This document shows, piece by piece, positions 20,356 to 57,512 of a DNA stretch of 64,000 nt; position 1 is the first letter of the stretch; every line of letters starts with the position of its first letter. The notes under the pieces are model-generated. The model saw only the letters and a list, made by a program, of their open reading frames with translations, was not told the DNA's origin and did no database searches. A program made the translations under genes and the position numbers. Source of the stretch: Xestospongia bergquistia. Taxonomy: Eukaryota > Porifera > Demospongiae > Haplosclerida > Petrosiidae. The stretch lies in the NCBI GenBank assembly GCA_963965975.1, contig OZ014416.1, positions 6,944,001 to 7,008,000 on the forward strand, in the 5' to 3' direction.

Positions 20356-21219
20356 TTAGAGACAGGCACGAGGCAGGAAACAAGTAACAACTGTCTGGAA
20401 CCAATTTGGAAGACAGCCATAACGACCATTTAGATAGTAACAGCCTTGAAATACAAATCCATACGTTTTGATGTTAGTGCCGAAAATCCTCATACTGTTA
20501 CCATGATCAGCTGACTCAAGAATTGACCTCCCTCTGTAGAATCCATCTTCCTCTTGAGTAAACCTCCTGCATACTGGAACAAGGCCATGTTTACCAGCAC
20601 AGGGAAATAACTTCTCGAGGTTAAGGAACACTGCACCATATTTAGTGTTGTGATAGCCATTGTACCTTGGTCTGTATGCAAGGATAGAGGAAGTCTTAGA
20701 TGTCACCCCATTCCCAATTGTAATTCTACTGAGGACTGGGCCTAGTCTAAAACTACCACCCTTCATCTTTTGAATTGTAAGTACACGACTTCCAGCACCA
20801 ATGGAAAGATAAAGCATTTGCACAACTGCATGTAAATAAATGAACAATCAAATAAATATACAATTTTTATTTTTAGACCTACCAGGTTGAGAAGCAAGTT
20901 TTTTGCTAATGACACAATTAATCAGTGTAGTAAGAGCTCGTACATTGATGCTGCAGAGGTTTGCAGAGGCAGGGATAACAGCTTGTTGGTTGCTGTCATC
21001 ATCTTCATCATCAGTCAGACTTTCTAGATCTAGATCTTCTTGGTTGTCTTCAGTGGACTTATCTGCTTCTTGTTTGTTGTCACCAAATGGTGTATCGACT
21101 TCTTGTTGGATCTCATCAAATGTCTTGTCCACTTCTAGTTGGTTGTCTTCAATTGATGTATCAAGGGGTTGTTGAGCAAACACTGCTGTAACAGCTAAAA
21201 GAACAAGAAAATACTTCAT
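20356..21219 (-). CDS. Secreted acidic/cysteine-containing protein, copy A
   Basis: Two exons on the minus strand: exon 1 21219-20883 (337 nt, phase 1, donor GTAGGT) and exon 2 20825-20356 (470 nt, after a GCAG acceptor). The product is 268 residues. Residues 1-16 (MKYFLVLLAVTAVFAQ) are a clear signal peptide. Residues 17 to about 85 are an acidic low-complexity region made of imperfect 11-13-residue repeats (IEDNQLEVDK-like), ending in DDEDDDSNQQ. A short helical segment with LCSINVRALTTLIN follows. The exon-2 domain of about 155 residues has six cysteines in A and hallmark pieces ILAYRP, FLNLE, CRRFTQEEDGF, MRIFG, TYGFV and CLP. No known domain was recognised. Start: the only ATG common to copies A, B and C, 47 bp below a TATA box. 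A secreted effector or matrix protein with an acidic pro-region is possible, but that is inference. Confidence 0.8.
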
Positions 21220-21265
21220 GTTGTGTATTTGTCTTTAAAAATGACAAGCACTTGTTACCTATCTT

Positions 21266-21274
21266 CTTATATAG
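21266..21274 (-). promoter_or_regulatory. TATA box of secreted gene A
   Basis: CTATATAAG on the minus strand, 47 bp upstream of the ATG. It is part of a conserved block with GAATTCCCATGG farther upstream that is shared with copies B and C. Confidence 0.7.
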
Positions 21275-21580
21275 CCATGGGAATTCGTATGAGTGACTAC
21301 ACTTAGACTATATTATTGGAAACGTGAACTCGTCGTGCAGGCCATAGTTATTTGCACAAAGCTGCATCACGTGCATACCTTGGAATGAATATAACCACAG
21401 ACGTCCAAAGTCAGTCATGGGTGAGTGTATTAATCCAAAATTATCGGAATGCCAACTGATCCGTACTTCTATTCTGGTGTTTTTCAATATATGTTCTAGA
21501 GAATATTGACACTAATTGGATAGTTTTGTAATATCAAGCGAATAAAAAAACTATTGTGACTTGTTCTAACGGCAAGCCTC

Positions 21581-21605
<25 letters not shown>
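21581..21605. repeat. (TA)n microsatellite
   Basis: A TA run, interrupted by tatg at its end, upstream of gene A. Confidence 0.9.
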
Positions 21606-21616
<11 letters not shown>

Positions 21617-21835
21617 ATTTGCATTAAAGGCCAAACACGTATATATCTATTGTTATTATAATTGATTTGATTTTCGCAGGATCTTATATTATTTTTGATT
21701 CTTGTCAATTACTGACATGATTACTTAACAAGATTACACTTGAAGTAAAGACATTTTTGTCTGAGACTAAAACAACAGCTACTAATTCAGGTAATTTCTA
21801 ATGATAGAAATTGCAAAGTAATTTTTTTAATTGTG

Positions 21836-23082: not shown

Positions 23083-23190
23083 CATTTGCCAACATAGTGA
23101 AATCTTATAGAAGGTATAATAACCATATTTCATAGCTACTAACCATGATGAACATGCACAATGAACTTAATTTCTCCTGAGTCTTCTCAG

Positions 23191-24655: not shown

Positions 24656-24659
24656 CATA

Positions 24660-25920: not shown

Positions 25921-25943
25921 TGATTTGAAAGTTAATGATCCAA

Positions 25944-26808
25944 TTAGAGACAGGCACGAGGCAGGAAGCACGTAACAACTGTCTCAAAATAATTTGGAAG
26001 ACATCCATAACGACCATTTAGATAGTAACAGTGTTCAAAAACAAATCCATACGTTTTGATGCTAGTACCGAAAATCCTCATACTGTTACCATGATCAGCT
26101 GACTCAAGAATTGACCTCCCTCTGTAGAATCCATCTTCCTCTTGAGTAAACCTCCTGCACACTGGAACAAGGCCATGTTTACCAGCACAGGGAAATAACT
26201 TCTCGAGGTTAAGGAACACTGCACCATATTTAGTGTTGTGAAAGCCATTGTACCTTGGTCTGTATGCAAGGATAGAGGAAGTCTTAGATGTCAGCCCATT
26301 CCCAATTGTGATTTTACTGAGGACTGGGCCTAGTCTAAAACTACCACCCTTTATCTTTCGAATTGTCAGTACACGGCTTCCAGAACCAATGGAAAGATAA
26401 AGCATCTGCACAACTGCATGTAAATAAATGAACAATCAAATAAATATACAATTTGTATTTTTTAGACCTACCAGGTTGAGAAGCAAGGTTTTTGTTAATG
26501 ACACCATTAATCAGTGTAGTAAGAGCTCGTACATTGATGCTACAGAGGTTTGTAGAGGCAGGGATAACAGCTTGTTGGTTGCTGTCATCATCATCTTCAT
26601 TAGTCAGAGTTTCTAGATCTAGATCTTCTTGGTTGTCTTCAGTGGACTTATCTGCTTCTTGTTTGTTGTCATCAAATGGCATATCGACTTGTTGTTGGAT
26701 GTCATCAGATATCTTGTCCACTTCTTGTTGGTTGTCTTCAATTGATTTATCAAGGGGGTGTTGAGCAAACACTGCTGCAACAGCTAAAAGAACAAGAAAA
26801 TACTTCAT
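25944..26808 (-). CDS. Secreted acidic/cysteine-containing protein, copy B
   Basis: Exon 1 26808-26472 (337 nt) and exon 2 26413-25944 (470 nt), with the same splice sites and phase as copy A. The product is 268 residues: signal peptide MKYFLVLLAVAAVFAQ, acidic repeats with KSIEDNQQEVDK, and the exon-2 domain with CRRFTQEEDGF, GFVFEHC, CLP and a terminal CFLPRACL. An in-frame ATG three codons upstream (26817) is not conserved in A, so MKYF is taken as the start. Compared with A, a cysteine in the exon-1 helix (LINCVISKK) is glycine here (LINGVINKN), while the six exon-2 cysteines are kept. The open frame and mainly substitutional divergence suggest function. The function itself is unknown. 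Confidence 0.8.
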
Positions 26809-30300: not shown

Positions 30301-31165
30301 TTAGAGGCTGGCACGAGGTAGGAAACACGTAACAACTGTCTGGAACCAATTTGGAAGACAGCTATAACGACCATTTAGATAGTAACAGTGTTCAAAAACA
30401 AACCCATACGTTTTGATGTTAGTGCCGAAAATCCTCATACTGTTACCATGATCAGCTTACTCAAGAATTGACCTCCCTCTGTAGAATCCATCTTCCTCTT
30501 GAGTAAACCTCCTGCACACTGGAACAAGGCCATGTTTACCAGCACAGGAAAATAACCTCTCGAGGTTAAGGAACACTGCACCATATTTAGTGTTGTGAAA
30601 GCCATTGTACCTTGGTCTGTATGCAAGGATAGAGGAAGTCTTAGATATCAGCCCATTCCCAATTGTTATACTATTGAGGACTGGGCCTAGTCTAAAACTA
30701 CCACCCTTTATCTTTCGAATTGTAAGTACACGTCTTCCAGAACCAATGGAAAGATAAAGCATTTGCACAACTGCATGTAAATAAATGAAAGATCATATAA
30801 ATATACAATCTGTATATTTTAGACCTACCAGGTTGAGAAGCAAGGTTTTTGTCAATGACACCATTAATCAGTGTAGTAAGAGCTCGTACATTGATGCTGC
30901 AGAGGTTTGCAGAGGCAGGGATAACAGCTTGTTGGTTGCTGTCATCATCTTCATCATCAGTCAGACTTTCTAGATCTAGATCTTCGTGGTTGTCTTCAGT
31001 GGACTTATCTGCTTCTTGTTTGTTGTCATCAAATGGCGTATTGACTTCTTGTTGGATGTCATCAGATATCTTATCCACTTCTTGTTGGTTGTCTTCAACT
31101 GATGTATCAACGGGATCCTGAGCAAACACTGCTGTAACAGCTAAAAGAACAAGAAAATACTTCAT
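30301..31165 (-). pseudogene. Secreted acidic/cysteine-containing protein, copy C, nonsense codon
   Basis: The structure matches A and B: exon 1 31165-30829 (337 nt), exon 2 30770-30301 (470 nt). A TCA serine codon in A and B is TAA here (30457-30459), so translation would stop after GRSILE, about 52 residues early. That removes the four C-terminal cysteine positions and the MRIFG and TYGFV pieces. Past the stop the frame stays open to the normal terminus, where the last cysteine has become serine (RASL). Intact splice sites and frame indicate recent loss. A truncated secreted product is possible, because the stop lies in the last exon and may escape nonsense-mediated decay. Confidence 0.75.
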
Positions 31166-34555: not shown

Positions 34556-35577
34556 TTTCAGAGAAGAGTGAAAGAAAGTGGACAGTTATGACTACAATGC
34601 TAGTTGTAATCATTAATGAACTAGTTGAAAAATTAAAACTATAAGATGGTTGTTATGTTGAAAGAATTCAATGTTTTCATTGAATCATATCCGTTGCATT
34701 TTTTGTTAAAATATGCTTTTAAAAATAAATTATAAATAATTTTATCATGCTTAGGAGATTTTACTAGTTTGATTTTAATACAATAATATAATATTGTAAG
34801 GCTGATAGTAAAATTAAGTAGGTGTGGATCTAGTTGATTATTCAGCTTTATACTCTAGTTTAGATAGTTATGTACAACGTATTCAAAATTATCTTATGTA
34901 ACAAAGTAGAGACAATAATTTTATCTCATTAGTAAAATTTCATTTGTATGTACATAATATCCATGTAGTTCCCAAACTAGATATGTTAACATTATTGTTC
35001 TTACAGTACTCACTAAGCTTACATTGACAATAACTTCTGTTACTATAATATTATACAAGCCAGAATTACTAATGTCTTGATAATGTTCTATAACTCATTC
35101 AACAGCTATTATTTTAGGTAGTGTGGTTTCTATGCTATAGAGATTGAAAGAGTGTTTGTCAACTTGTAATTTACGCGCCATACTCAGGCATACAACGTAC
35201 TTTTTGAAAACGTTCCTTCATACATAATGAGTACTACTATTATTATTCTATTGTCTAAACCTTCCTGGTCTTCATTTGAAATTTTGGTCAGAATAATAAT
35301 AAATATTCTTTGTTCTTTTTCGTAATGGCACTTCACGTAAACACTACTATACATATATACGTACAATATATTAACTGGCTAATTATTAGGAACATTTGTG
35401 AGTAGCTGCTACCTTTCAATCAAACTATCTTTTGCAAAAACAAAGTTGCGACTATTTTACAAAAAAAACAGTATATGCCAAAACTAATTATACAAAATTC
35501 CGACTAATTTTACAAAACAGTATATGCAAAAACTACTAATTATACAAAATTCGTTAAAGGAACGAGGCAGGATCCAT

Positions 35578-36367
35578 TTAGAGACAGGAACGTGGCAAAA
35601 CACACAGCACAACAGTCTGAAAAATCTTTGGAAGACAGCCATCGGCACCATTTAGATATCGACATTGTTCAATAACAAATCCATACGTTTTAATGCCAAT
35701 GCCAAAAATCCTCATATTGTTACCACCATCAGCTGCCTCAGCAATTGTCTTTCCTTTGAAGAAACCGTCTTCGTCTTGAGTGAACCTCCTGCACGGTGGA
35801 ACAACAAGGCCATTTTTTCCACAGGGAAACAGGTTCTCGAGGTTAAGGAATATCGCACCTAGTTGAGAGTTGTGATAGTCCTTGTAACTAGGTCTGTACG
35901 CAAGAATAGAGGAAGTCGTAGATGTCTTCCCATTCCCAATTGTAATGCTATCGAGGATAGGGCCTCGTGTAAGACTATCACCCTTTATCTTTTGAATTGT
36001 CAGTACACGGCTACCAGCACCAATGGAGAGATAAACCATCTGCACAACTGCGTAGATAAAAAGAACCATTGACATTATGCGTATGCAATATTGACCAATA
36101 ACTGTGTATGGTTTTAGACCTACCAGGTTGAGAAGTAAGCTTTTTATCAACGACAAAGTTAATCAGTTTCTCGAGGTGTGTGGAGGTAGGAATAACAGCT
36201 GATTCGCTGTTGTCACTGTTGTCATCTTCCATATTCGCACCTTCCATTTCTTGTTGGTTGACTTCAAAAGACTTATCCATTTCAAGTTGGCTGTCCTCAA
36301 ATGACGTCTCAACACGAGGGTCAGCAAACACCACTGCAACAACTAAGCAAACAATAAAATATTTCAT
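35578..36367 (-). CDS. Secreted acidic/cysteine-containing protein, copy D
   Basis: Exon 1 36367-36124 (244 nt, phase 1, donor GTAGGT) and exon 2 36047-35578 (470 nt), for a 237-residue product. Signal peptide MKYFIVCLVVAVVFA. The acidic region is about 31 residues shorter than in A-C, with FEDSQLEMDK and FEVNQQEMEG repeats and DDNSDNSE. Exon 2 has the same length as in A-C, with conserved ILAYRP, FLNLE, CRRFTQDEDGF, MRIFGIGIKTYGFV, CLPKIFQTVV and a terminal CVLPRSCL, keeping the six cysteines. An upstream in-frame ATG (MLVIREKIRK, 36397) overlaps the leader expected from the TATA box. MKYF matches the start in A-C and gives the better signal peptide. Function unknown. Confidence 0.8.
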
Positions 36368-36411
36368 TTTTCGTATTTTTTCACGAATGACCAGCACTGG
36401 TTGGCTACCTG

Positions 36412-36420
36412 CTTAAATAG
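36412..36420 (-). promoter_or_regulatory. TATA-like box of secreted gene D
   Basis: CTATTTAAG on the minus strand, 45 bp above the ATG, with GAATTC just upstream as in A-C. The D/E/F group carries TTTAA where A-C have TATAA. Confidence 0.6.
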
Positions 36421-36467
36421 CCTTGTGAATTCGTATAAAAGCCTACACTTACATTGCGTACATTATG

Positions 36468-36469
<2 letters not shown>

Positions 36470-36502
<33 letters not shown>
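36470..36502. repeat. (TA)n microsatellite upstream of gene D
   Basis: A TA run at the position equivalent to the shorter runs upstream of E (45720) and F (57605). Confidence 0.9.
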
Positions 36503-36506
<4 letters not shown>

Positions 36507-36850
36507 GATATATATTATATTATATAACGTGACGTTATTGACTTTCTATTATGTCTACGGGAAAGCGATTATTATCCTAATAAGAATCTTCAAAATAATT
36601 AAATCAGTAATGGACGAGTGTACTAATAGTCGAAAAACATGTCATATATATATGGAACATGTTGACACAGTAGTAACAAATGTGGTTAATATTAGTGTTT
36701 GTTGTTTGGTATAGTCCAATAGTATTCAATTTTCTAGTGCATGGAAAAATCGATTTTATTTACTCATTTTTGAATCTTGAATAAGTCTATAGTAGTTCTA
36801 GTTTTAGCTCTATTTTTATAAACTTCTATATAGGTTGTATATCTGTGAAA

Positions 36851-36876
36851 AAACTCTCTCTCTCTCTCTCTCTTTA
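36851..36876 (+). repeat. (CT)n microsatellite
   Basis: A CT run also present in unit E (about 46080) and unit F (about 58003). Confidence 0.9.
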
Positions 36877-37019
36877 CATTTTAAAATGTATGTTTAAAGC
36901 TTCATTAAATGGAATATCAACAAATAATAGCCACCTTTTCTTTTTGGCAGCTATATTTCCAGTCATGCCTTCATGTCATATAATTAATAGTCAGAGTAAT
37001 CACATAAGATACAACAGCT

Positions 37020-37335
37020 GGGACAGTATGTATTCTGCCCATTGTAGATTTGCTGTGCATTGTGTTAAAGAACATCCACTGTATATATTCCATTGGTATT
37101 CTCTCTATTGTAGTTTTGCTGTGCATTGTGTGAAAGAACTGCCCTTGTTTGTATTCCATTGCAGTCAGTTTAATTTGCTGTAGATTATGTTTAAATAAGG
37201 ACTGCCACTGTATGTATTCTATGCTTTGTGTTTTTGCTCTGTATACAAGGACTGGCACTATATTTATTTCTATCATAGTCAATTTATTGTTTATTATATG
37301 TAAGGAATGATACTACATGTATTCAACCCTTATAT
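37020..37335 (+). repeat. ~62-bp degenerate tandem repeat (unit D)
   Basis: Successive variants of tgtattccattg ... ttgctgtgcattgtgtgaaa follow each other about every 60 bp for five units. Counterparts lie at about 46245-46560 (E), 58165-58460 (F) and, shorter, 34160-34290 (C). Confidence 0.7.
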
Positions 37336-41700: not shown

Positions 41701-42094
41701 TAACTGCATCCATTACTGACAAAGGTAGTCGATGAAGCTCTCGTGTCTTGAGTATCCATACAGCTGAAGCTTTCTGCATATCAACTATGCCAGTTTCAGC
41801 ACTGTCTTCCTCACTCACGTTTCTGTCATCAGAAGTAGAAGTACTATCAAGCAGGTTTGAGTTGGAATTTTCTTCTAAATTCACCAAGCAGTCATGATCA
41901 GTAACGATGATGGATGTGTCATGATAGTTGTAGATATGGTTACGATAACTTTCAAAGCTAGCATAGGTTCGGGAACACCCTTGGAGGTTACACTGTAAAT
42001 GAAAGTTTGGTTTGTCGGCATGTGATAGCCTTACGTGTCGTAGGAATTCAGACAAAGCACGAAAGTTATATTCACAACATAGCGGACATTTCAT
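38745..42094 (-). pseudogene. C2H2 zinc-finger transposase of transposon copy 1, multi-exon, decayed
   Basis: About 13 exons. Exon 1 (42094-41507) starts MKCPLCCEYNFRALSEF and carries two C2H2-type fingers (CPLCC...HVRLSH; CNLQGC...HIYNYH). Later exons include 41407-41258, 41024-40943 (VYYDDVELCNPLGS), 40825-40662 (FYFTLANLHPKYRS), 40618-40445 (ALISADNPAS, a C-x-x-C), 40368 down (LLPDVMHDILEG), 40125-40018, about 39948-39675, 39601-39411 (HWCMRFEAKHSYFK), 39349-39285 and 39080-38745. These blocks occur in this order in metazoan CACTA-like transposases. Breaks: a TAG at 40126-40128, a TGA in the exon near 39925 where relatives have tryptophan, both shared with copy 2, and a one-base deletion near 38858 not present in copy 2. 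Exons between 41257 and 41025 could not be joined in phase. Confidence 0.75.
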
Positions 42095-42315
42095 TTCTTC
42101 ACGTCACTGACCATAGATAGTAGAGTAGATCTATGCACTGACTGATCTAGACATCTAGTAGCGCCTGTATCAGGATTAAAGGTGTGACTGTACTAGGAGG
42201 GAGGAGTAAGTGCCATACTTTTACATACTGTTTTTGATTTCAACTATTATTATTGATTTCATTGTTATTGCTATACATTCACTAGGGAACTTGGAAAATA
42301 CAGCTCAGGCAGAAA
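42095..42315. promoter_or_regulatory. Shared bidirectional promoter region of the transposon
   Basis: 221 bp separate the divergent start codons of the transposase (42094) and the accessory gene (42316). No clear TATA box. The interval holds a purine-rich aggagggaggagtaag. It is repeated at 51343-51563 and 53756-53976 in copy 2. Confidence 0.4.
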
Positions 42316-43750
42316 ATGAGCAATATGAGAAGACCATCATCTTCATCTGATTTGGACGACGTGAGATAATTATGGTATTATGATTAAAATACTTTGTTCT
42401 TTCCATGTGGTAGATGGAGAATTGTGAAACTCCAAAGTCCCAAACTAGGAAACGCTCGGTAATAAATTAGTCTTTGTAAACTAATACATCATTATTATGT
42501 TGTAGTTATCAATAAAACTATTATTATGTATCTCCATCTAGATTGAAGCAGGTGGAACCCCTAAGAGACAAAAAGTTTCTGATAAGATCAATTTGGTGAG
42601 TATACGTTGAGGTTACATGATTTGTATTAACTGTTTTGTAATTTTAATGTTTACATGTAGTTTAATACTGAACAATCCCAAGAGACTGACCATGATGCTC
42701 ATGAGAGCAATCTTGCTCTCCTCCAACAGCATCTGGCCAAACAGGATCATGAAGTGTCAGACATAAAATCTTTGATGCATAAAACCTTTTCAACTCGAAA
42801 GAAATGGATAATTGAAGACATTCCACCCGTTTATCAAATCCTTGATTTGTTTCCATCACTAAAAAAAGTGAAATATGTGAGTAATGAAAACCATCATGTA
42901 CAATTATTCATTATCATTATTATTTAGTTGATGTGTGAATTGAAGTGTATAGTGGAACGGGATGACTCACTAGAGGCTTTCCCAACTATGTTCAAGGATG
43001 GAAAAGCTAACTTTATGCAGTTGCAATCTAAGATCAGAAGATATGCCAAGCTGGAAAGTGAGACATCTAGGTCTTTAGTAGCATTACTTGAAAAACAGAG
43101 TAATGAGTTGTCCTTTTGTCTTGGTGAGTTGATGATTGGTACATATTCCAACAAATTTGTAAATATTGCTTTTTTTATTTAATGATCAGATGCAGTTGAT
43201 GATCTAGAATCAACCAATGAAACTATCGACACTAGCAATCTTGAAAGCATGCATACCTTTCAGCAGTTAGAGTATCTCCTTCTACCAAAGTTGTTTACAA
43301 ACACATCTGTTATTAATGTTTTAACTGTGAGTATCATGCATGTTACATTAAAGTATCAAGTTACTTAATTTTTTAGTTACACCAATTTGTTTTCATATAG
43401 TCTATCATGCTTGATATATTTTTGTATAGGATCCATTTGATGACTTAGAGGAGCTGGCTAAAAGAGACAAACGAAACTATCCCTATATTACTGCTGTGAA
43501 CAACAGTGATACAATTCAGTTCTTCCTCATTGTTGAGCGCATTGTATTCACAAAGACATCTGACTTTTTTAAAGCTTTGTGGGGATTAATTGCGGCATAT
43601 TTCACTTTTAATATTCAATACCCCAAAGCACTTACCAACATCCTTGTTTTTATACAACATTTGCTGTTAGGAATCAAAAACAAAGGCCAGAAAATCCCTC
43701 CTCTTGTAAACCGAGTGTACAGTGCTGTGATGAAGACTGTGTCTGAATGA
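42316..43750 (+). CDS. Transposon accessory gene, seven exons, intact (copy 1)
   Basis: Exons 42316-42360, 42414-42458, 42542-42595, 42661-42876, 42928-43123, 43190-43326 and 43430-43750 all have GT..AG borders and matching phases and add up to 1014 nt (337 residues plus stop). The N-terminus is short, polar and basic (MSNMRRPSSSSDLDD, TRKRS, PKRQK), suggesting nuclear import. Then come a Q/H-rich helix, a block around VYQILDLFPSLKK, and a C-terminal block (FFLIVERIVF, FNIQYPKAL, FIQHLLLGI). That C-terminal pattern recalls repeat-associated animal proteins often annotated as SAM-domain-containing 3-like. The match is from memory and the role in transposition is unknown. The open frame contrasts with the decayed transposase opposite it. 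Confidence 0.75.
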
Positions 43751-43757
43751 ATGTCAT

Positions 43758-43759
<2 letters not shown>

Positions 43760-43777
<18 letters not shown>
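43760..43777. repeat. (TA)n microsatellite inside the transposon
   Basis: A short TA run just after the accessory-gene stop; also at about 55417 in copy 2. Confidence 0.85.
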
Positions 43778-43789
<12 letters not shown>

Positions 43790-44818
43790 ATGAGTATGCC
43801 TGATTTAGATGAATTAGATTGTAATACATTATTTTGTTTGGTTTTGTTTCGGTTTGATGAAGTTTCTCACATTTGTTGATTTTTAAGGATAAAAGACATT
43901 TGTTGAATAACTATAATTTATTTTGCTCTACATATAATGCAGAATTGTAGCAGCTACACCCTTGGGTTGTTACTCAGTAACAACTTTTGGGTTGTCATAT
44001 TTAAACCAGTGGGCGAGAAACCTTAGGGTTGTTATGACAACAACCTATTTTTTACAGTGTAGGTGTGGATCTAGTTGATTATTCAGCTTTATACTCTAGT
44101 TTAGATAGTCATGTACAACGTATTCAAAATTATCTTATGTAACAAAGTAGAGACAATAATTTTATCTCATTAGTAAAATTTCAATTGTATGTACATAATA
44201 TCCACGTAGTTCCCAAACTAGATATGTTAACATTACTGTTCTTACAGTACTCTCTAAGCTTACATTGACAATAACTTCTGTTACTATAATATTATACAAG
44301 CCAGAATTACTAATGTCTTGATAATGTTCTATAACTCATTCAACAGCTATTATTTCAGGTAGTGTGGTTTCTATGCTATAGAGATTGAAAGAGTGTTTGT
44401 CAACTTACGCGCCATACTCAGGCATACAACGTACTTTTTGAAAACGTTCCTTCATACATAATGAGTACTACTATTATTATTCTATTGTCTAAACCTTCCT
44501 GATCTTCATTTGAAATTTTGGTCAGAATAATAATAAATATTCTTTGTTCTTTTTCGTAATGGCACTTCACGTAAACACTACTAGACATAATTATATATAC
44601 GTACAATATATTAACTGGCTAATTATTAGGAACATTTGTGAGTAGTTGCTACCTTTCAATCAAACTAGTATGCAAAAACAAAGTTGCGACTATTTTACAA
44701 AAAAAACGGTATATGCCAAAACTAATTATACAAAATTCTGACTAATTTTACTACAAAACAGTATATGCAAAAACTACTAATTATACAAAATTCGTTAAAG
44801 GAACGAGGCAGGATCCAT

Positions 44819-45626
44819 TTAGAGACAGGAACGTGGCAAAACACACAGCACAACAGTCTGAAAAATCTTTGGAAGACAGCCATCGGCACCATTTAGATAT
44901 CGACATTGTTCAATAACAAATCCATACGTTTTAATGCCAATGCCAAAAATCCTCATATTGTTACCACCATCAGCTGCCTCCGCAATTGTCTTTCCTTTGA
45001 AGAAACCGTCTTCGTCTTGAGTGAACCTCCTGCACGGTGGAACAACAAGGCCATTTTTTCCACAGGGAAACAGGTTCTCGAGGTTAAGGAATATCGCACC
45101 TAGTTGAGAGTTGTGATAGTCCTTGTAACTAGGTCTGTACGCAAGAATAGAGGAAGTCGTAGATGTCTTCCCATTCCCAATTGTAATGCTATCGAGGATA
45201 GGGCCTCGTGTAAGACTATCACCCTTTATCTTTTGAATTGTCAGTACACGCGGCTACCAGCACCAATGGAGAGATAAACCATCTGCACAACTGCGTAGAT
45301 AAAAAAAAAAGAATCATTTGACATTATGCATATAAATTTACACATTTGACTAAACGTTAACTGTGTATGGTTTTAGACCTACCAGGTTGAGAAGCAAGCT
45401 TTTTATCAATGACAAGGTTAATCAGTTTCTCGAGGCGTGTGGAGGTAGGAATAACAGCTGATTCGCTGTTGTCACTGTCGTCATCTTCCATATTCCCACC
45501 TTCCATTTCTTGTTGGTTGACTTCAAAAGACCTATCCACTTCAGGTTGGCTGTCCTCAAATGACGTCTCAATACGAGGGTCAGCAAACACTACTGCAACA
45601 GCTAAGAAAACAATAAAATATTTCAT
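44819..45626 (-). pseudogene. Secreted acidic/cysteine-containing protein, copy E, frameshifted
   Basis: Exon 1 45626-45383 (244 nt) is intact, with signal peptide MKYFIVFLAVAVVFA and the shortened acidic region. Exon 2 45290-44819 is 472 nt instead of 470. A CG dinucleotide is inserted at about 45248-45252 (cacgcggct for cacggct in D and F), so the frame runs into TGA (45241-45243) some 16 codons into the domain. The rest of exon 2 is almost identical to D, which points to a very recent lesion or a sequencing or assembly error at a CG repeat. Splice sites are unchanged. Confidence 0.75.
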
Positions 45627-45670
45627 TTTTCGTATTTTTTCACGAATGACCAGCACTGGTTGGCTACCTG

Positions 45671-45679
45671 CTTAAATAG
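45671..45679 (-). promoter_or_regulatory. TATA-like box of secreted copy E
   Basis: CTATTTAAG on the minus strand, 45 bp above the ATG, as in D. Confidence 0.55.
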
Positions 45680-46244
45680 TCTTGTGAATTCGTATAAAAG
45701 CATACACTTACATTGCGTACATATATATATTATATAACGTGACGTTATTGACTTTCTATTATGTCAGTAATGGACGGGTGTACTAATAGTCGAAAAACGT
45801 GTCCTATATATATATATATATATGGAACATGTTGACACAGTATTAACAAATGTGGTTAATATTAGTGTTTGTTGTTTGGTATAGTCCAATAGTATTCAAT
45901 TTTCTAGTGCATGAAAACATTGATTTTATTTACTCAAGATATGATAACATTTTTGAATCTTGTCACTAGTGGGTGTAAATTCTCATAACATGTATTTGGA
46001 AGGTTTCTTTTGAAGTCTACTCGTTCTAGTTCTAGCTCTATTTTTATAAACTTCTATATAGGTTATATATCTGTGAAAAACTCTCTCTCTCTCTCTCTTT
46101 ACATTTTAAAATGTATGCTTAAAACTTCATTAAATGGAATATCAACAAATAATAGCCACCTTTTCTTTTTGGCAGCTGTATTTCCAGTCATGCCTTCATG
46201 TCATATAATTAATAGTCAGAGTAATCACATAAGATACAACAGCT

Positions 46245-46560
46245 GGGACCATATGTATTCTGCTCATTGTAGATTTGCTGTGCATTGTGTTAAAGAACAT
46301 CCACTGTATATATTCCATTGGTATTCTCTCTATTGTAGTTTTGCTGTGCATTGTGTGAAAGAACTGCCCTTGTTTGTATTCCATTGCAGTCAGTTTAATT
46401 TGCTGTAGATTATGTTTAAATAAGGACTGCCACTGTATGTATTCTATGCATTGTGTTTTTGCTCTGTATACAAGGACTGGCACTATATCTATTCCATCAT
46501 AGTCAGTTTATTGTTTATTATATGTAAGGAATGATACTACATGTATTCAACCCTTATATG
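46245..46560 (+). repeat. ~62-bp degenerate tandem repeat (unit E)
   Basis: Counterpart of 37020-37335. Confidence 0.7.
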
Positions 46561-47968
46561 TACACAATGCATGGTCAGCAAAGTTACCACTAATTACTAT
46601 TGAACTGTATACTTTGACTTCATAAAAAGTATTATACACTGTGTGGAGATTCCTATTTACATTCCATAGTGACAGACTTTACATATACGAGACTCAATAC
46701 ACAGCAAAGCTACCATAGAACGCATATAGTGAATGTCTTTGCAAGAACTGTCCATAATTATCAATATATCAAACCATCTCACTTTTACAAGGTCAGCAAA
46801 GTTAAATTCAGTCAAATTGACATCTAAACATCATCTTTTGAGTAATGTGGTCTGGTATCAAGTAGTTTAGGAAACAATGACCATATCTTTATTAGATTGA
46901 GCAATACATATATGTTAGCATTTCTGTTATTTCAGCACTCACTGAAGTGTATTGCCAATGTTTTGAACCTCTGTTATATACTAGTTTGATGAAAAAACAT
47001 ATACTTACAAAATTGATTTAAAATACCAACAACATATATATCCTATTTAGTAATAAATATGGAATTGACAGTTCATTAATTTATTAATAAATGACTTCTC
47101 AGTAAGGACATGTATGTGATATTGAGGTTTGTTATTAGCATCCTTAACATGTTACTCTTTATCCTTCAAATTGGCAATTGGCAGCTCTCTATAACGAAAC
47201 TGAAAGTTTAAAAATTTGAACAGCTACTTTGAAACAGTTTTGACAAATAAACTATAAGTAATATCAAAATAACATAGCATATTATGCACATACATTTTCA
47301 AATAAATATTAACATTGACTAATTGTTGACTTGTATATTTAAACCATACGCAGTTTAAATTAAAGAAGTTTATTAACAGCAATAGCTCTTATTATACAAG
47401 TTAGCATTAATAACACAGTGTTATAGGTGTTACTCAATTTGACCTGACAGAAAATCAAACTGAATCCTGTATAAGCTTAAAATTTATAAAGCTTAATTTA
47501 TAAAGCTATAAGATGGTTGTTATGTTGAAAGAATTCAATGCTTTCATTGAATCATATCCGTTGGGTTTTATGAGATTTTACTAGTTTGATTATAATACGA
47601 TAACATAATATTGTAAGGCTGATAGTAAAATTAAGTACACTGTAAAAATTGGGTTGTTACTACAATAATCTTAACAACCATAAGGAGATAGTGGGTTGTT
47701 TCCAGAACATCAATGAGATGTAGTGGGTTGCTAAGGGTTGTCACACATGCAAACTTCTTGTTGAAAAGTGTTAATGTATGATCTTAAGGCAAGTTACTGA
47801 ACAGCAAGTCAAGATTTACACATATATTTCCGTTGAAGGAGCAAGTTATGGCTGTATATATAATATTAACTAATTGTCTTTTAATAATAACAATATTTGT
47901 TAAAATGTTATTGAATGGAAACAAATATTGACAAAACACAAAGCAGCATGTTACAAAAAGGAAAAAAT

Positions 47969-50900
47969 TTACACATACAATGTGTTACATATATGAAACT
48001 TAGGAACAACAGTTAGCATGGATGATTGTACATGCAATTGCCTGATAAAATACAGTGTGGAATGATATCTGTTCAAATTTTCTAAGTCAAATAAAGTGTA
48101 TGTAGAAGTTGCTTTAATAACATATGCATGATAATGAATGTTAAACTTGACGGTCGTATAACAGCGACAATATCCAAATGGCTGGTTTCCTCCAATGATG
48201 TATATGTGACATAACCTGGCAAACACAGGGTGATCATCTTTGACATCAACTAAAAGTGTAGCATCTGGTTGATATTTGACACCAGCAATGATTAACCAGT
48301 TGGTTCTGAAAAAAATGAAGCAGTTTAGGTCAGCAAAACTGTTGCACTCATCAACTTATGGATTCATGTACTTGATGAAATTTACAGACATATAGACAGA
48401 CACAAACACACACACATACATGAGTAGATTACAGTATCTATTCCTATAATAATTGAAATCAAATAGAACTGATAATAAGACAATATGTTGTTTACATGCA
48501 TAAGCATATACTTGTAACACTCTATTTATTCATCTTGCAGATCATAGGGACGATCCATAACAGCAACACTACTCCCTGCATATAAGTATATAATTACTTG
48601 ACACAGCTGAAGAACAAACAACAACTATCAAATATACCTGGGCCAATTTGAAGGTCATCTTGGATTAAGGAAGTGTTGTCCAAGTTATTGTAGCAGGTCA
48701 TAAATTGATGACGCTTTGCAAGAGTTAGGCTAATGTTTTTGTAATTTCCAATTTTTTGAGACAATTTTTTGAAGTATGAATGCTTTGCTTCAAACCTCAT
48801 GCACCAGTGTCGAACCAGAGGTCCATATCTGAAAAAATAGTATTGTTATGTTTCATAATAACAACACAATGTATGTAACTATTTGTTCATAATGTAACTT
48901 ACTTTAGAATGAGTCTTGGCATGTGTATGCAATAGTGCATTTTTGGGATCACACTTGACTGAGGATACAAGTCAAGGAATGCTGTATGATGGTCCTCTAT
49001 TAAAAGTTTCAGATAACTAACATCATCTTCCAAAATCTCTGGTGCCATCAAGTAGTCCGTGATCTCCAGCATTAGTAGGTAATTTTTATAATGATAATCA
49101 CTCTCAGGAATGAAACTACCAATCATAAAAGGTATGAGCCGGCATAGTAGTCATGCTTGAGATGCTGAATGCAATTAAGAAAGAAAAGAAAGAAGTTTTT
49201 GATTATGAACCCAGTCAGTATAACATGTAGCTTACCTTTTTGCTTTAAACTGCCAGTATCACTAACAAGGGTTTGGTGAGATATGGGTGCTGGACGATCA
49301 GTTTCGTTATATCCCAGCTCAATTCCTTCAATAAAATCATTCAAAGTGGCCAGCTAAAATATGTTGAAGTAATGATTGGTGAGCATAGAGTGCTGAAGAA
49401 ATAACTTTAATTCATACTGCAGACATCCTTCCAGGATATCATGCATGACATCTGGTAGTAAACCTTCACAAACATTAAAATACCTTAAGTCCATTAAAAC
49501 ACTTCGTCTAGTAATTCCATATTTAATTGAGTAAGTCCCATCATCATCATTCATCAGATCACTTAAATGTGATTGGTGCAGTTCAATTGAGCGCAACTGA
49601 AACAGCTCTTCTTTGGACTAAATTTCATAATAGAACAAGGGAAGTGAGAAGAACAGGGAACTTTAAACTCACAATCTCTTTACTCTCGTCTGCAGTACTT
49701 AAGCACTGGCGACAAAAACGATAAGCACTGCTTCCTTCTTTGAACCCACCACAAGCACTGCTTGCTGGATTATCTATCTGCTGATATCAAAGCAATGGTA
49801 CCATATAAGTTGATGTTTTCTTCATTGATCATGAATATATGGCCAGACTCCTGTAAAGGTACACATATCAATACATGAAAAGTCAAATTTTACAATATCA
49901 AATTTACTAATTTTTTTAAATCGTCCACAATTGGCTTTAGCACAGAGTCCAATGAGTACTTCTTGATATATTTGTGCTTGCATATTGCCAGCAGCTGTAT
50001 GTTCCTGACCTTTGACCGATACTTAGGGTGAAGGTTTGCCAGAGTGAAGTAAAAGAATCCTAAAATATTTTGTTCAACACTAAATGCATATAATGTCAAT
50101 ACTCAAATTACAACATACATATTTGATAACAGACTCGCCTACATCTACACTGAACTCAAAAAATACATGTATGTACCTAATTTGTGCTTCGTTCTACTTG
50201 ATCCTAACGGATTACATAACTCCACATCATCATAGTATACTAACAGCTGCAAAGCATTCTACCAAACAAAAAACATTTGATGTATTTTGAAGTTTTCTCC
50301 ATCACAGAAGTCACTAACTACTAAGTAAGAATCCCTGGAACCCTACTTGCATGGCCTCTCTGAATCTACAATATAATATAAGATTGGCCAGTATATACTC
50401 AAATGAAATGATTAGTCACTACATACCAGATTTTCTGAAATTGTTGGTGCATCACTAATTTATTAATTGCTGTAATCTTAATTTAACTAACCTCTTCCCA
50501 AACAGTGGAATTATTGAGCATCAATTGTAATGTATCCAAAACTGGGATATAAGTCATTGTTTCACTTATCTCAACAACATGCCGTTTAGATCCACGTTTC
50601 TGAGGCCTTAGTTTGGTTCCTAAAACAATCTCAATTGGATTCTACAGATTAAAAAGAAATCGATGGAACTCATTAATGATGTTGATATATATATTCTACA
50701 CTAGTAATATAACTTGACTTAGATTATACATGTAAATTACCACCATGTTGAAGTTCTCACTGAAATATTTCATTTGTTGTGATTGTGTTTCAAGTCCAGA
50801 GAATATTTTCTTCCTTGTAGTGAACTCTTTGGATACTTGTTCAATGGTAAATGTATCTACCTTAGCATCCCTAAGAATACTTGTTACACGATGGCATGTG

Positions 50901-51342
50901 TTTTGTAATGATATATCATAGAGCGATTGAATATCAATCATAACTGCATCCATTACTGACAAAGGTAGTCGATGAAGCTCTCGTGTCTTGAGTATCCATA
51001 CAGCTGAAGCTTTCTGCATATCAACTATGCCAGTTTCAGCACTGTCTTCCTCACTCACGTTTCTGTCATCAGAATAGAAGTACTATCAAGCAGGGTTGAG
51101 TCGGAATTTTCTTCTAAATTCACCAAGCAGTCATGATCAGTAACAATGATGGATGTGTCATGGTAGTTGTAGATATGGTTACGATAACTTTCAAAGCTAG
51201 CATAGGTTCGGGAACACCCTTGGAGGTTACACTGTAAATGAAAGTTTGGTTTGTCGGCATGTGAATGATGTGATAGCCTTACGTGTCGTAGGAATTCAGA
51301 CAAAGCACGAAAGTTATATTCACAACATAGCGGACATTTCAT
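47969..51342 (-). pseudogene. Transposase of transposon copy 2, decayed
   Basis: The same exon order as 38745-42094. Shared lesions are the TAG before the LATLNDF block and the TGA before the LLCRLIP-like block. Private lesions are a one-base loss at about 51075 after LLDSTS in the zinc-finger exon, a T lost in the poly-T at about 49912 (frame ends LKKLVNLIL), and a 4-bp insertion at about 49773. The C-terminal exon (48226-47969 portion) keeps the frame that copy 1 has lost. A 9-bp insertion lengthens the first zinc-finger spacer (RLSHHSHADK). Not able to encode a full transposase. Confidence 0.7.
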
Positions 51343-52830
51343 TTCTTCACGTCACTGACCATAGATAGTAGAGTAGATCTATGCACTGACTGATCTAGAC
51401 ATCTAGTAGCGCCTGTATCAGGATTAAAGGTGTGACTGTACTAGGAGGGAGGAGTAAGTGCCATACTTTTACATACTGTTTTTGATTTCAACTATTATTA
51501 TTGATTTCATTGTTATTGCTATACATTCACTAGGGAACTTGGAAAATACAGCTCAGGCAGAAAATGAGCAATATGAGAAGACCATCATCTTCATCTGATT
51601 TGGACGACGTGAGATAATTATGGTATTATGATTAAAATACTTTGTTCTTTCCATGTGGTAGATGGAGAATCGTGAAACTCCAAAGTCCCAAACTAGGAAA
51701 CGCTCGGTAATAAATTAGTCTTTGTAAACTAATACATCATTATTATGTTGTAGTTATCAATAAAACTATTATTATGTATCTCCATCTAGATTGAAGCAGG
51801 TGGAACCCCTATGAGACAAAAAGTTTCTGATAAGATCAATTTGGTGAGTATACGTTGAGGTTACATGATTTGTATTAACTGTTTTGTAATTTTAATGTTT
51901 ACATGTAGTTTAATACTGAACAATCCCAAGAGACTGACCATGATGCTCATGAGAGCAATCTTGCTCTCCTCCAACAGCATCTGGCCAAACAGGATCATGA
52001 AGTGTCAGACATAAAATCTTTGATGCATACAACCTTTTCAACTCGAAAGAAATGGATAATTGAAGACATTCCACCCGTTTATCAAATCCTTGATTTGTTT
52101 CCATCACTAAAAAAAGTGAAATATGTGAGTAATGAAAACCATCATGTACAATTATTCATTATCATTATTATTTAGTTGATGTGTGAATTGAAGTGTATAG
52201 TGGAACGGGATGACTCACTAGAGGCTTTCCCAACTATGTTCAAGGATGGAAAAGCTAACTTTATGCAGTTGCAATCTAAGATCAGAAGATATGCCAAGCT
52301 GGAAAGTGAGACATCTAGGTCTTTAGTAGCATTACTTGAAAAACAGAGTAATGAGTTGTCCTTTTGTCTTGGTGAGTTGATGATTGGTACATATTCCAAC
52401 AAATTTGTAAATATTGCTTTTTTATTTAATGATCAGATGCAGTTGATGATCTAGAATCAACCAATGAAACTATCGACACTAGCAATCTTGAAAGCATGCA
52501 TACCTTTCAGCAGTTAGAGTATCTCCTTCTACCAAAGTTGTTTACAAACACATCTGTTATTATGTTTTAACTGTGAGTATCATGCATGTTACATTAAAGT
52601 ATCAAGTTACTTAATTTTTTAGTTACACCAATTTGTTTTCATATAGTCTATCATGCTTGATATATTTTTGTATAGGATCCATTTGATGACTTAGAGGAGC
52701 TGGCTAAAAGAGACAAACGAAACTATCCCTATATTACTGCTGTGAATAACAGTGGTACAATGCAGTTCTTCCTCATTGTTGAGCGCATTGTATTCACAAA
52801 GACATCTGACTTTTTTAAAGCTTTGTGGGG
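50418..52830. repeat. First copy of the 2413-bp tandem duplication inside transposon copy 2
   Basis: Covers the transposase 5' exons, the divergent promoter and the accessory gene up to the middle of its last exon. The left edge reads gtcACTAcatacc. Confidence 0.9.
51564..52830 (+). pseudogene. Accessory gene of transposon copy 2, first copy, 3'-truncated
   Basis: The exons correspond to those of 42316-43750. A one-base deletion near 52560 (attatgt for attaatgt) shifts exon 6, and the last exon is cut at the duplication junction, where the sequence passes into antisense transposase. The conserved C-terminal block is missing. It also has a Lys-to-Met change in the PKRQK motif. Confidence 0.75.
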
Positions 52831-55244
52831 ACTACATACCAGATTTTCTGAAATTGTTGGTGCATCACTAATTTATTAATTGCTGTAATCTTAATTTAAC
52901 TAACCTCTTCCCAAACAGTGGAATTATTGAGCATCAATTGTAATGTATCCAAAACTGGGATATAAGTCATTGTTTCACTTATCTCAACAACATGCCGTTT
53001 AGATCCACGTTTCTGAGGCCTTAGTTTGGTTCCTAAAACAATCTCAATTGGATTCTACAGATTAAAAAGAAATCGATGGAACTCATTAATGATGTTGATA
53101 TATATATTCTACACTAGTAATATAACTTGACTTAGATTATACATGTAAATTACCACCATGTTGAAGTTCTCACTGAAATATTTCAATTGTTGTGATTGTG
53201 TTTCAAGTCCAGAGAATATTTTCTTCCTTGTAGTGAACTCTTTGGATACTTGTTCAATGGTAAATGTATCTACCTTAGCATCCCTAAGAATACTTGTTAC
53301 ACGATGGCATGTGTTTTGTAATGATATATCATAGAGCGATTGAATATCAATCATAACTGCATCCATTACTGACAAAGGTAGTCGATGAAGCTCTCGTGTC
53401 TTGAGTATCCATACAGCTGAAGCTTTCTGCATATCAACTATGCCAGTTTCAGCACTGTCTTCCTCACTCACGTTTCTGTCATCAGAATAGAAGTACTATC
53501 AAGCAGGGTTGAGTCGGAATTTTCTTCTAAATTCACCAAGCAGTCATGATCAGTAACAATGATGGATGTGTCATGGTAGTTGTAGATATGGTTACGATAA
53601 CTTTCAAAGCTAGCATAGGTTCGGGAACACCCTTGGAGGTTACACTGTAAATGAAAGTTTGGTTTGTCGGCATGTGAATGATGTGATAGCCTTACGTGTC
53701 GTAGGAATTCAGACAAAGCACGAAAGTTATATTCACAACATAGCGGACATTTCATTTCTTCACGTCACTGACCATAGATAGTAGAGTAGATCTATGCACT
53801 GACTGATCTAGACATCTAGTAGCGCCTGTATCAGGATTAAAGGTGTGACTGTAATAGGAGGGAGGAGTAAGTGCCATACTTTTACATACTGTTTTTGATT
53901 TCAACTATTATTATTGATTTCATTGTTATTGCTATACATTCACTAGGGAACTTGGAAAATACAGCTCAGGCAGAAAATGAGCAATATGAGAAGACCATCA
54001 TCTTCATCTGATTTGGACGACGTGAGATAATTATGGTATTATGATTAAAATACTTTGTTCTTTCCATGTGGTAGATGGAGAATTGTGAAACTCCAAAGTC
54101 CCAAACTAGGAAATGCTCGGTAATAAATTAGTCTTTGTAAACTAATACATCATTATTGTGTTGTACTTATCAATAAAACTATTATTATGTATCTCCATCT
54201 AGATTGAAGCAGGTGGAACCCCTAAGAGACAAAAAGTTTCTGATAAGATCAATTTGGTGAGTATACGTTGAGGTTACATGATTTGTATTAACTGTTTTGT
54301 AATTTTAATGTTTACATGTAGTTTAATACTGAACAATCCCAAGAGACTGACCATGATGCTCATGAGAGCAATCTTGCTCTCCTCCAACAGCATCTGGCCA
54401 AACAGGATCATGAAGTGTCAGACATAAAATCTTTGATGCATACAACCTTTTCAACTCGAAAGAAATGGATAATTGAAGACATTCCACCCGTTTATCAAAT
54501 CCTTGATTTGTTTCCATCACTAAAAAAAGTGAAATGTGTGAGTAATGAAAACTATCATGTACAATTATTCATTATCATTATTATTTAGTTGATGTGTGAA
54601 TTGAAGTGTATAGTGGAACGGGATGACTCACTAGAGGCTTTCCCAACTATGTTCAAGGATGGAAAAGCTAAATTTATGCAGTTGCAATCTAAGATCAGAA
54701 GATATGCCAAGCTGGAAAGTGAGACATCTAGGTCTTTAGTAGCATTACTTGAAAAACAGAGTAATGAGTTGTCCTTTTGTCTTGGTGAGTTGATGATTGG
54801 TACATATTCCAACAAATTTGTAAATATTGCTTTTTTATTTAATGATCAGATGCAGTTGATGATCTAGAATCAACCAATGAAACTATCGACACTAGCAATC
54901 TTGAAAGCATGCATACCTTTCAGCAGTTAGAGTATCTCCTTCTACCAAAGTTGTTTACAAACACATCTGTTATTAATGTTTTAACTGTGAGTATCATGCA
55001 TGTTACATTAAAGTATCAAGTTACTTAATTTTTTAGTTACACCAATTTGTTTTCATATAGTCTATCATGCTTGATATATTTTTGTATAGGATCCATTTGA
55101 TGACTTAGAGGAGCTGGCTAAAAGAGACAAACGAAACTATCCCTATATTACTGCTGTGAATAACAGTGGTACAATGCAGTTCTTCCTCATTGTTGAGCGC
55201 ATTGTATTCACAAAGACATCTGACTTTTTTAAAGCTTTGTGGGG
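52831..55244. repeat. Second copy of the 2413-bp tandem duplication
   Basis: The junction at 52831 reads ggggACTAcatacc. The parental sequences are gtcACTAcatacc (50415) and ggggACTAattgc (55241), so the join used a 4-bp ACTA microhomology. Confidence 0.9.
52836..53755 (-). pseudogene. Transposase 5' fragment, second copy
   Basis: Duplicate of the zinc-finger exon and the next exons (53755 down). It shares the one-base loss after LLDSTS with the first copy, so that lesion predates the internal duplication. It has no downstream catalytic exons of its own, because the accessory gene lies beyond. Confidence 0.75.
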
Positions 55245-55410
55245 ACTAATTGCGGCATAGTTCACTTTTAATATTCAATACCCCAAAGCACTTACCAACA
55301 TCCTTGTTTTTATACAACATTTGCTGTTAGGAATCAAAAACAAAGGCCAGAAAATCCCTCCTCTTGTAAACCGAGTGTACAGTGCTGTGATGAAGACTGT
55401 GTCTGAATGA
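53977..55410 (+). pseudogene. Accessory gene of transposon copy 2, second copy, nonsense codon
   Basis: All seven exons are present. In the last exon a TAT tyrosine codon of copy 1 is TAG (55258-55260), truncating the protein within its C-terminal block (after LWGLIAA). Exon 6 lacks the deletion seen in the first copy. Exon 4 ends with a Tyr-to-Cys change at its splice edge (aaatgt|gtgag). Confidence 0.7.
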
Positions 55411-55940
55411 ATGTCATTATATATATATATATATAAAATTATACATTATGAGTATGCCTGATTTAGATGAATTAGATTGTAATACATTATTTTGTTTGGT
55501 TTTGTTTCGGTTTGATGCAGTTTCTCACATTTGTAGATTTTTAAGGATAAAAGACATTTGTTGAATAACTATAATTTATTTTGCTCTACATACAATGCAG
55601 AATTGTAGCAGCTACACCCTTGGGTTGTTACTCAGTAACAACTTTTGGGTTGTTATATTTAAACCAGTGGGCGAGCAACCTTAGGGTTGTTATGACAACA
55701 AACTATTTTTTACAGTGTAGGTGTGGATCTAGTTGATTATTCAGCTTTATACTCTAGTTTAGATAGTTATGTACAACGTATTCAAAATTATCTTATGTAA
55801 CAAAGTAGAGACAATAATTTTATCTCATTAGTAAAATTTCAATTGTATGTACATAATATCCATGTAGTTCCCAAACTAGATATGTTAACATTATTGTTCT
55901 TACAGTACTCACTAAGCTTACATTGACAATAACTTCTGTT

Positions 55941-56330
55941 ACTATAATATTATACAAGCCAGAATTACTAATGTCTTGATAATGTTCTATAACTCATTCA
56001 ACAGCTATTATTTCAGGTAGTGTGGTTTCTATGCTATAGAGATTGAAAGAGTGTTTGTCAACTTGTAATTTACGCGCCATACTCAGGCATACAACGTACT
56101 ATAATATTATACAAGCCAGAATTACTAATGTCTTGATAATGTTCTATAACTCATTCAACAGCTATTATTTCAGGTAGTGTGGTTTTTATGCTATAGAGAT
56201 TGAAAGAGTGTTTGTCAACTTGTAATTTACGCGCCATACTAAGGCATACAACGTACTTTTTGAAAACGTTCCTTCATACATAATCGCGCCATACTCAGGC
56301 ATACAACGTACTTCTTGAAAACGTTCCTTC
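55941..56330. repeat. Local tandem duplication unique to unit F
   Basis: A 157-bp segment (55941-56097) is repeated from 56098, and a third partial copy of the cgcgccatactcaggcatac block begins at 56284. D and E have a single copy. It lies downstream of the secreted gene F stop. Confidence 0.85.
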
Positions 56331-56743
56331 ATACATAATGAGTACTACTATTATTCTATTGCCTAAACCTTCCTGATCTTCATTTGAAATTTTGGTCAGA
56401 ATAATAAATATTCTTTGTTCTTTTTCGTAATGGCACTTCACGTAAACACTACTAGACATAATTATATATACGTACAATATATTAACTGGCTAATTATTAG
56501 GAACATTTGTGAGTAGCTGCTACCTTTCAATCAATGAAAGTAGTCAAACTAGTATGAGCGAACTACCATATGCAAAAACAAAGTTGCGATTATTTTACAA
56601 AAAAAACAGTATATGCCAAAACTAATTATACAAAATTCCTATGCCAAAACTAATTATACAAAATTCCCACTAATTTTACAAAACAGTATATGCAAGAACT
56701 ACTAATTATACAAAATTCGTTAAAGGAACGAGGCAGGATCCAT

Positions 56744-57512
56744 TTAGAGACAGGAACTTGGCAAAACACACAGCACAACAGTCTGAAAAATCTTTGGAAG
56801 ACAGCCATTGGCACCATTTAGATATCGACATTGTTCAATAACAAATCCATACGTTTTAATGCCAATGCCAAAAATCCTCATATTGTTACCACCATCAGCT
56901 GCCTCAGCAATTGTCTTTCCTTTGAAGAAACCGTCTTCGTCTTGAGTGAACCTCCTGCACGGTGGAACAACAACGCCATTTTTTCCACAGGGAAACAGCT
57001 CCTCGAGGTTAAGGAATATCGCACCTAGTTGAGAGTTGTGATAGTCCTTGTAACTAGGTCTGTACGCAAGGATAGAGGAAGTCGTAGATGTCTTCCCATT
57101 CCCAATTGTAATGCTATCGAGGATAGGGCCTCGTGTAAGACTATCACCGTTTATCTTTCGAATTGTCAGTACACGGCTACCAGCACCAATGGAGAGATAA
57201 ACCATCTGCACAACTGCGTAGATAAAAAAGAATCATTGACATTATGCGTATGCAAATTTTAAATTTACCAGGTTGAGAAGCAAGCTTTTTATCAATGACA
57301 AAGTTAATCAGTTTCTCGAGGCGTGTGGAGGTAGGAATAACAGCTGATTCGCTGTTGTCACTTTTGTCATCTTTCATATTCGCACCTTCCATTTCTTGTT
57401 GGTTGACTTCAAAAGACCTATCCACTTCAGGTTGGCTGTCCTCAAATGACGTCTCAATACGAGGGTCAGCAAACACTACTGCAACAGCTAAGAAAACAAT
57501 AAAATATTTCAT
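56744..57512 (-). CDS. Secreted acidic/cysteine-containing protein, copy F
   Basis: Exon 1 57512-57269 (244 nt) and exon 2 57213-56744 (470 nt) give 237 residues. Signal peptide MKYFIVFLAVAVVFA; acidic repeats FEDSQPEVDRSFEVNQQEME; the usual exon-2 domain ending CVLPSSCL, with all six cysteines. The intron is shorter at its start than in D and E, and its donor is GTAAAT instead of GTAGGT, the only copy with a different donor. Lys replaces Asp/Glu at two acidic positions (MKDDKSD). The frame is open, so together with A, B and D this is one of four intact members. Function unknown. Confidence 0.8.

Follow-up and report, generated by a model that had tools for sequence, protein, structure and literature searches.

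An orphan family of secreted six-cysteine proteins in the demosponge Xestospongia bergquistia, with a suggestive charge offset between arm and head

What is encoded by the six similar genes that stand in tandem on contig OZ014416.1 of the demosponge Xestospongia bergquistia (GenBank assembly GCA_963965975.1), and what might their products do? The genes, named A to F here, span 20356-57512 of the window, by which we mean the whole analysed stretch of 64,000 nucleotides (nt), C6:6944001-7008000 of the assembly. They belong to a maintained, orphan, secreted demosponge family that undergoes birth and death in place. The new element, observed and suggestive, is an offset in the C6 cluster between the negative charge of an N-terminal acidic arm and the positive charge of the basic head that follows it.

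Charges of arm and head

Exon 1 of these genes begins with an apparent signal peptide (MKYF...VFA), judged from sequence, and continues in the C6 cluster with an acidic arm; exon 2 codes a 155-residue head with six cysteines. Net charge was counted after the signal peptide as lysine plus arginine minus aspartate minus glutamate. For the four intact genes of the window, arm and head charges were -18 and +13 (A), -17 and +12 (B), -10 and +6 (D), and -6 and +5 (F); the three intact C6 genes outside the window gave -10 and +6 (G), -4 and +4 (H), and -12 and +8 (I). Across these seven genes the two charges were correlated at -0.97 (Pearson) and -1.0 (Spearman), and the variance of their sum was 3.9, as against 27.0 for the arm and 12.2 for the head. 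By component the correlation was -0.80 for lysine plus arginine and 0.65 for aspartate plus glutamate, while values for five non-charge properties of the head were 0.40-0.62 in size. The result was insensitive to an assumed signal length of 15-20 residues, and the broken copies agree with it (C, -21 and +13; E, -10 and +6 for its downstream piece).

The genes behind this correlation are few and related, the offset was noticed post hoc, before testing, and the relation is absent within the armless C5 cluster of the same family (r +0.16, n=5), all of which could speak for coincidence. However, independent contrasts, which allow for relatedness, still gave -0.90 in C6 (6 contrasts, p 0.006); with the intact C1 gene, C1b, added they gave -0.89 (7 contrasts, p 0.003), and over all 13 intact genes of the genome -0.78 (12 contrasts, p 0.0016). 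The plain C6 correlation also survived removal of any single gene and stood at -0.94 without A and B (n=5), and we regard coincidence as an unlikely explanation.

Within exon 1, a 33-nt tandem repeat was found in 6 of 6 window copies, at 2.6-2.9 copies in A-C and 1.9-2.1 in D-F, where the arm is shorter. Gain and loss of this repeat, which codes 11 residues, is suggested as a simple route to stepwise change of negative charge; as an explanation of every arm charge it was rejected, G, H and I being without a detected repeat. Directly after the otherwise variable arm, the motif AVIP occurs in 9 of 9 C6 copies and, from its position in the sequence, may mark a site of arm removal.

It is also conceivable, if somewhat unlikely, and the chief competing view, that the arm stays on and that the offset merely bounds whole-protein charge and solubility or aids granule packing, the head being a soluble recognition or catalytic domain. 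Whole-protein net charge lies between -5 and 0 in all seven intact C6 genes, as this would predict, and the C5 cluster retains the head with no acidic arm. Eight polar residues (S45, Y50, R51, H58, N68, D93, D106 and N109) are invariant in 16 of 16 aligned heads and may indicate where binding or catalysis takes place. The AVIP boundary and the faster evolution of the arm described below would fit a removable arm as well, however, and no catalytic family was matched.

Gene anatomy, duplication and selection

The sequence-only reading that drew attention to the array described six minus-strand, two-exon genes with a phase-1 intron and a signal peptide, four of them intact and two broken. This description proved accurate, the signal peptide as an assignment from sequence and the positions agreeing to the base. 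GT...AG boundaries in phase 1 fit 6 of 6 copies, with a valine codon split into one base and two bases, and the introns of A to F measure 57, 58, 58, 76, 92 and 55 nt. The 470-nt second exon that had been described is present in five of the six copies and not in E, where it has 472 nt. Chance is ruled out as the source of the resemblance, A-F matching head A at expectation values (E) of 2e-110 to 5e-63. The features of the array are as follows.

20883..21219, minus strand: gene A exon 1, with signal peptide, acidic arm (net -21 before AVIP), AVIP boundary and a pre-head helix-like segment (helix by eye)
20356..20825, minus strand: gene A exon 2, head with six cysteines, intact, net +13
21066..21162, minus strand: 33-nt repeat in A exon 1, 2.9 copies
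21266..21273, minus strand: TATA-like element of gene A, TATATAAG, 54 nt before the ATG
26472..26808, minus strand: gene B exon 1
25944..26413, minus strand: gene B exon 2, intact
26655-26741: 33-nt repeat in B exon 1, 2.6 copies
30829..31165, minus strand: gene C exon 1, open
30301..30770, minus strand: gene C exon 2, in-frame stop, last head cysteine absent
31012-31098: 33-nt repeat in C exon 1, 2.6 copies
36124..36367, minus strand: gene D exon 1, arm shorter, no cysteine after the signal peptide
35578..36047, minus strand: gene D exon 2, intact
36243-36305: 33-nt repeat in D exon 1, 1.9 copies
45383..45626, minus strand: gene E exon 1, open
44819..45290, minus strand: gene E exon 2, 472 nt, frameshift from a 2-nt insertion
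45498-45564: 33-nt repeat in E exon 1, 2.1 copies
57269..57512, minus strand: gene F exon 1
56744..57213, minus strand: gene F exon 2, intact
57384-57450: 33-nt repeat in F exon 1, 2.1 copies
34818..59359, no strand assigned: stretch covered by the duplication units that contain D, E and F, at offsets of about 9.24 and 11.7-11.9 kilobases (kb)

The reading frame is open throughout in A, B, D and F. In gene C, exon 2 is interrupted by an in-frame stop, and the sixth and last head cysteine is gone as well; in gene E the insertion lies early in exon 2. Compared with D, exon 2 of E differs by a single synonymous change over the open part compared and exon 1 by about 13 changes: exon 2 of E was broken very recently, or was recently copied, or contains an assembly error. 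In 9 of 9 C6 copies, broken ones included, a TATA-like element stands 51-55 nt upstream of the ATG (counted by eye), and in all nine a slightly varying stretch resembling ATACGAATTC precedes the element (by eye).

The whole assembly (146.46 Mb, 21 contigs) was searched for further copies. Head A returned 23 matches at E<=0.001 and the head of gene C5b returned 29 at E<=1, the last two of them weak. The matches fall in three locations: C6, with nine copies over 85.5 kb and a fragment; C1, with two copies and fragments; and C5, with seven copies and fragments. The C6 array thus exceeds the window, three of its nine copies lying to the left. Splicing gave 18 models, of which 13 are intact (seven in C6, one in C1, five in C5) and five are broken (C, E, C1a, C5d and C5f); outside the window phase 1 was assumed in splicing, and an open junction was obtained each time. 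Gln-Pro precedes the intron in 18 of 18 models (as His-Pro in C5d). The domain of about 155 residues with six conserved cysteines, claimed from the window, extends to every intact gene of the genome (13 of 13), C5a having a seventh cysteine. The acidic, repetitive N-terminus is not common to the whole family, the C5 cluster being without an acidic arm.

The segment just before the head looks alike in all three clusters and, in some C5 genes, seems to occur twice (both by eye). Such a segment might assemble oligomers of a structural or matrix protein, in the manner of a cuticle, a spongin-like material or an egg coat, and chains could be cross-linked through a further cysteine that A, B, G, H and I carry ahead of the head. 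That cysteine is missing from D and F, however, and no Gly-rich or collagen-like repeats were seen by eye; a matrix role appears improbable.

In a tree of 16 heads, which leaves out C and E, as does the corresponding alignment, the copies of each chromosome are separated from all others by a single branch (supports 98/98, 100/100 and 100/99). There are thus three lineages of old date, and each has multiplied by local duplication. The two subfamilies proposed for the window, A-C and D-F, find support in the groupings A+B (100/99) and D+F (99/99) of this tree and A+B+C (100/99) of an exon-2 DNA tree from which E was left out. The proposed pattern of gene birth and death is likewise upheld by the chromosome-wise branches and by the 13 intact genes found among five broken models and fragments. 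Among the 20 of 52 repeat families listed, most sampled ungapped pieces of the D-F duplication units were 96-100% alike and some 60-87%. Between A and G (L012), synonymous distance was 0.11 in exon 1 as against 0.28 in exon 2, a difference that may reflect conversion or unequal histories of the two exons.

Selection was compared over pairs of the seven intact C6 genes by rates of non-synonymous (dN) and synonymous (dS) change, the young pairs A-B and D-F being set apart to leave 19 divergent pairs. In the head, dN was below dS (bootstrap P<0.05) in 16 of these 19 pairs, with a median ratio of 0.58; in the arm exon this was so in 1 of 19, with a median of 0.77. The young pairs gave head ratios of 0.34 (A-B, P 0.016) and 2.2 (D-F, P 0.79). 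Among A, B and C, amino-acid changes were relatively commoner in exon 1 than in exon 2 (49:8 versus 42:28, Fisher p 0.0014, from pooled, non-independent pairs with counts rounded by hand), as they were for A-B alone (p 0.018). The contrast is absent in D-F (p 1.0), where an excess of amino-acid change was not significant (18 of 20 changes non-synonymous versus 78% expected, p 0.14). The head is thus under purifying selection in most comparisons and is maintained, and the acidic arm evolves faster, being loosely constrained or diversifying. A dN/dS ratio near 1 across all copies, which the sequence-only reading had named as evidence that would count against it, does not hold, head ratios falling below 1 in most pairs.

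Relatives and proposed function

That the domain matches no known family, as had been suggested, stands within searches of Pfam, NCBIfam and PDB sequences. "Unrecognised" is used here with respect to these three, to prokaryote genomes and to viral contigs, animal proteomes lying outside the search. None of the 16 heads matched any Pfam family at E<=1, C1q/TNF and the ML domain included. Against PDB sequences the best E was 0.34, and three matches at E 0.34-0.86 were taken as chance. Heads A and C5b, as single-protein queries that reach close relatives only, brought up no confirmed relative in prokaryote genomes, and neither did the head alignment and the same two heads in viral contigs, in searches by which close relatives are best reached. 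An NCBIfam phosphatase match in 1 of 16 heads (E 0.026) was dismissed as chance, as were four Pfam matches of gene A's acidic exon 1 (E 0.019-0.17), all below curated cut-offs.

Two AlphaFold2 runs of seven window rows each gave mean predicted local distance difference test (pLDDT) scores of 41.5 and 33.2, with many strands, and were unusable. A Foldseek search with the first model gave a best E of 0.54 and query template-modelling scores of 0.11-0.31 among the matches listed, and was treated as meaningless. The cysteines of head A stand at positions 75, 85, 128, 137, 148 and 154 of the head alignment (the last two counted by eye).

The head might instead be a divergent ependymin-related, C1q/TNF-like or ML domain member lying below sequence detection, and the array an ordinary sponge expansion. 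C1q/TNF-like secreted heads carry a short N-terminal neck before the head, and here too a short helix-like segment (by eye) leads into a head of about 150 residues that is probably rich in strands; they differ in that the present heads have no Pfam match and contain six cysteines. Ependymin-related proteins were the most serious candidate: as described in excerpts from one study (PMC6280359), they are secreted, cysteine-patterned and very divergent, and in the sponge Amphimedon queenslandica duplication has raised their number to 15 genes or more. The many strands in both poor models would also speak for a known family of this kind. Ependymin-related profiles share three cysteines conserved in all (alignment positions 23, 94 and 186) besides profile-specific ones; in the family studied here, D and F lack any cysteine ahead of the head. 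The genome's own matches to ependymin (PF00811), six at E<=10 with a best of 4e-10, however, all lie at C8:7218498-7231410 and none in the C6, C1 or C5 clusters; the C8 matches probably form a separate tandem family. A profile comparison of the head with one 74-residue stretch of this C8 cluster gave a probability of 0.1% over a match of 4 columns. With 0 of 16 heads matching at E<=1, ependymin-related membership is unsupported by sequence, and a hidden member of any of these known families seems quite unlikely.

As the best-supported reading we tentatively propose, at somewhat less than an even chance, that the family encodes a secreted, basic, disulfide-rich head that is masked in cis by its acidic arm and is later exposed to bind an anionic target. 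After signal-peptide cleavage, the C6 proteins would consist of a fast-evolving acidic arm, then a helix-like segment that is conserved, and finally a basic head, about 155 residues long and presumably stabilised by disulfides. The arm would neutralise the head within the same molecule during synthesis and storage; it would then be removed or displaced, perhaps at the AVIP boundary, and the cationic head would be free to bind glycans, matrix or the surface of microbes. The interface with microbes, mates or neighbours that the sequence-only reading had suggested is a candidate role, plausible in the case of microbes. The fuller version of this proposal is that of an unnamed demosponge secreted fold in which each duplicate carries its own acidic mask, of a length partly set by the 33-nt repeats and matched to the charge of its head, so that large-protein charge-balanced effectors would arise by tandem duplication in place; taken as a whole, it strikes us as rather unlikely.

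Alpha-defensins and frog antimicrobial peptides have signal peptides and duplicated genes, as does the sponge family. In both systems, moreover, an acidic segment precedes a basic product and the two charges are negatively related, as in the net charge balance hypothesis: excerpts from one study (PMC7073735) describe anionic propieces that neutralise alpha-defensins and a negative correlation of propiece and peptide charge in two of three frogs. In the sponge, the succession of signal peptide, acidic segment and basic, cysteine-containing product can be recognised on sequence grounds in the seven intact C6 genes and in C1b, and not in the C5 genes; the negative charge relation between paralogues that marks charge-balanced effectors was found in C6 and not in C5 alone. 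Unlike those peptides, the basic part of the sponge proteins is a six-cysteine head of 155 residues and not a short peptide, and the arms contain 33-nt repeats in 6 of 9 C6 copies. The likeness is one of working only: no homology is claimed, and processing of the sponge proteins is presumed.

Several points weigh against the masked-head proposal in addition to the small number of genes and the post hoc origin of the charge relation. The relation is absent in C5, the cluster without an arm, so an ancestral origin of masking cannot be demonstrated; since the C5 genes keep the head, it probably has an activity that does not depend on masking. Head charges of +4 to +13 over about 156 residues are moderate and not like those of antimicrobial peptides, and the frog relation is itself weak and absent in one of the three frogs, according to the same excerpts (PMC7073735). 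The 33-nt repeat was looked for and not detected in G, H and I, and no usable fold was obtained, the best model reaching the pLDDT of 41.5 given above.

Neighbouring sequences and meaning for the family

A number of other features were noted within and around the array. A 39-nt minisatellite occupies 9171-16478 of the window (about 189 copies) and 3468-4290 (21 copies); an extreme C skew marks the longer of the two arrays (GC skew about -0.8), and the repeat peptide recurs in frames of the flanking L012:4952-6442, with a looser resemblance in L019. Between the D-F units there are three near-identical copies of a gene piece (41462-42103, 50696-51351 and 53109-53764). The first, the only one scanned, has a weak, sub-cut-off similarity to Pfam zinc fingers (best E 0.0057); the other two stand 2.4 kb apart and are split over two frames. 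Beside the C6 array, two similar frames (L009:3969-4526 and 5991-6557) resemble beta/gamma-crystallin motifs by eye, and zinc-knuckle and protease-like retroelement frames (by eye) lie between array copies I and H (L010:4186-4984). Elsewhere on C6, nuclear pieces resembling mitochondrial COX1, with stops, were found at C6:3154917-3155898 and 3199148-3200446. The mitochondrial contig (18,997 bp) itself has a COX1 match with nine internal TGA codons and an atp9-like frame of 78 residues (by eye), and ARAGORN placed 12 and 13 transfer RNAs in two stretches of it, none in the overlap. Set beside the order of genes known from demosponge mitochondria, this contig indicates a demosponge.

The secreted repertoire of sponges is, to our knowledge, largely uncharacterised. 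Should masking be wrong and only the family be new, there would still be an orphan domain with three old gene clusters and a clear record of birth and death. If masking is right, these paralogues would form a natural set for testing how an acidic, disordered segment evolves together with a basic, folded domain of the same protein, and sponges would gain a candidate family for defence or for an interface.

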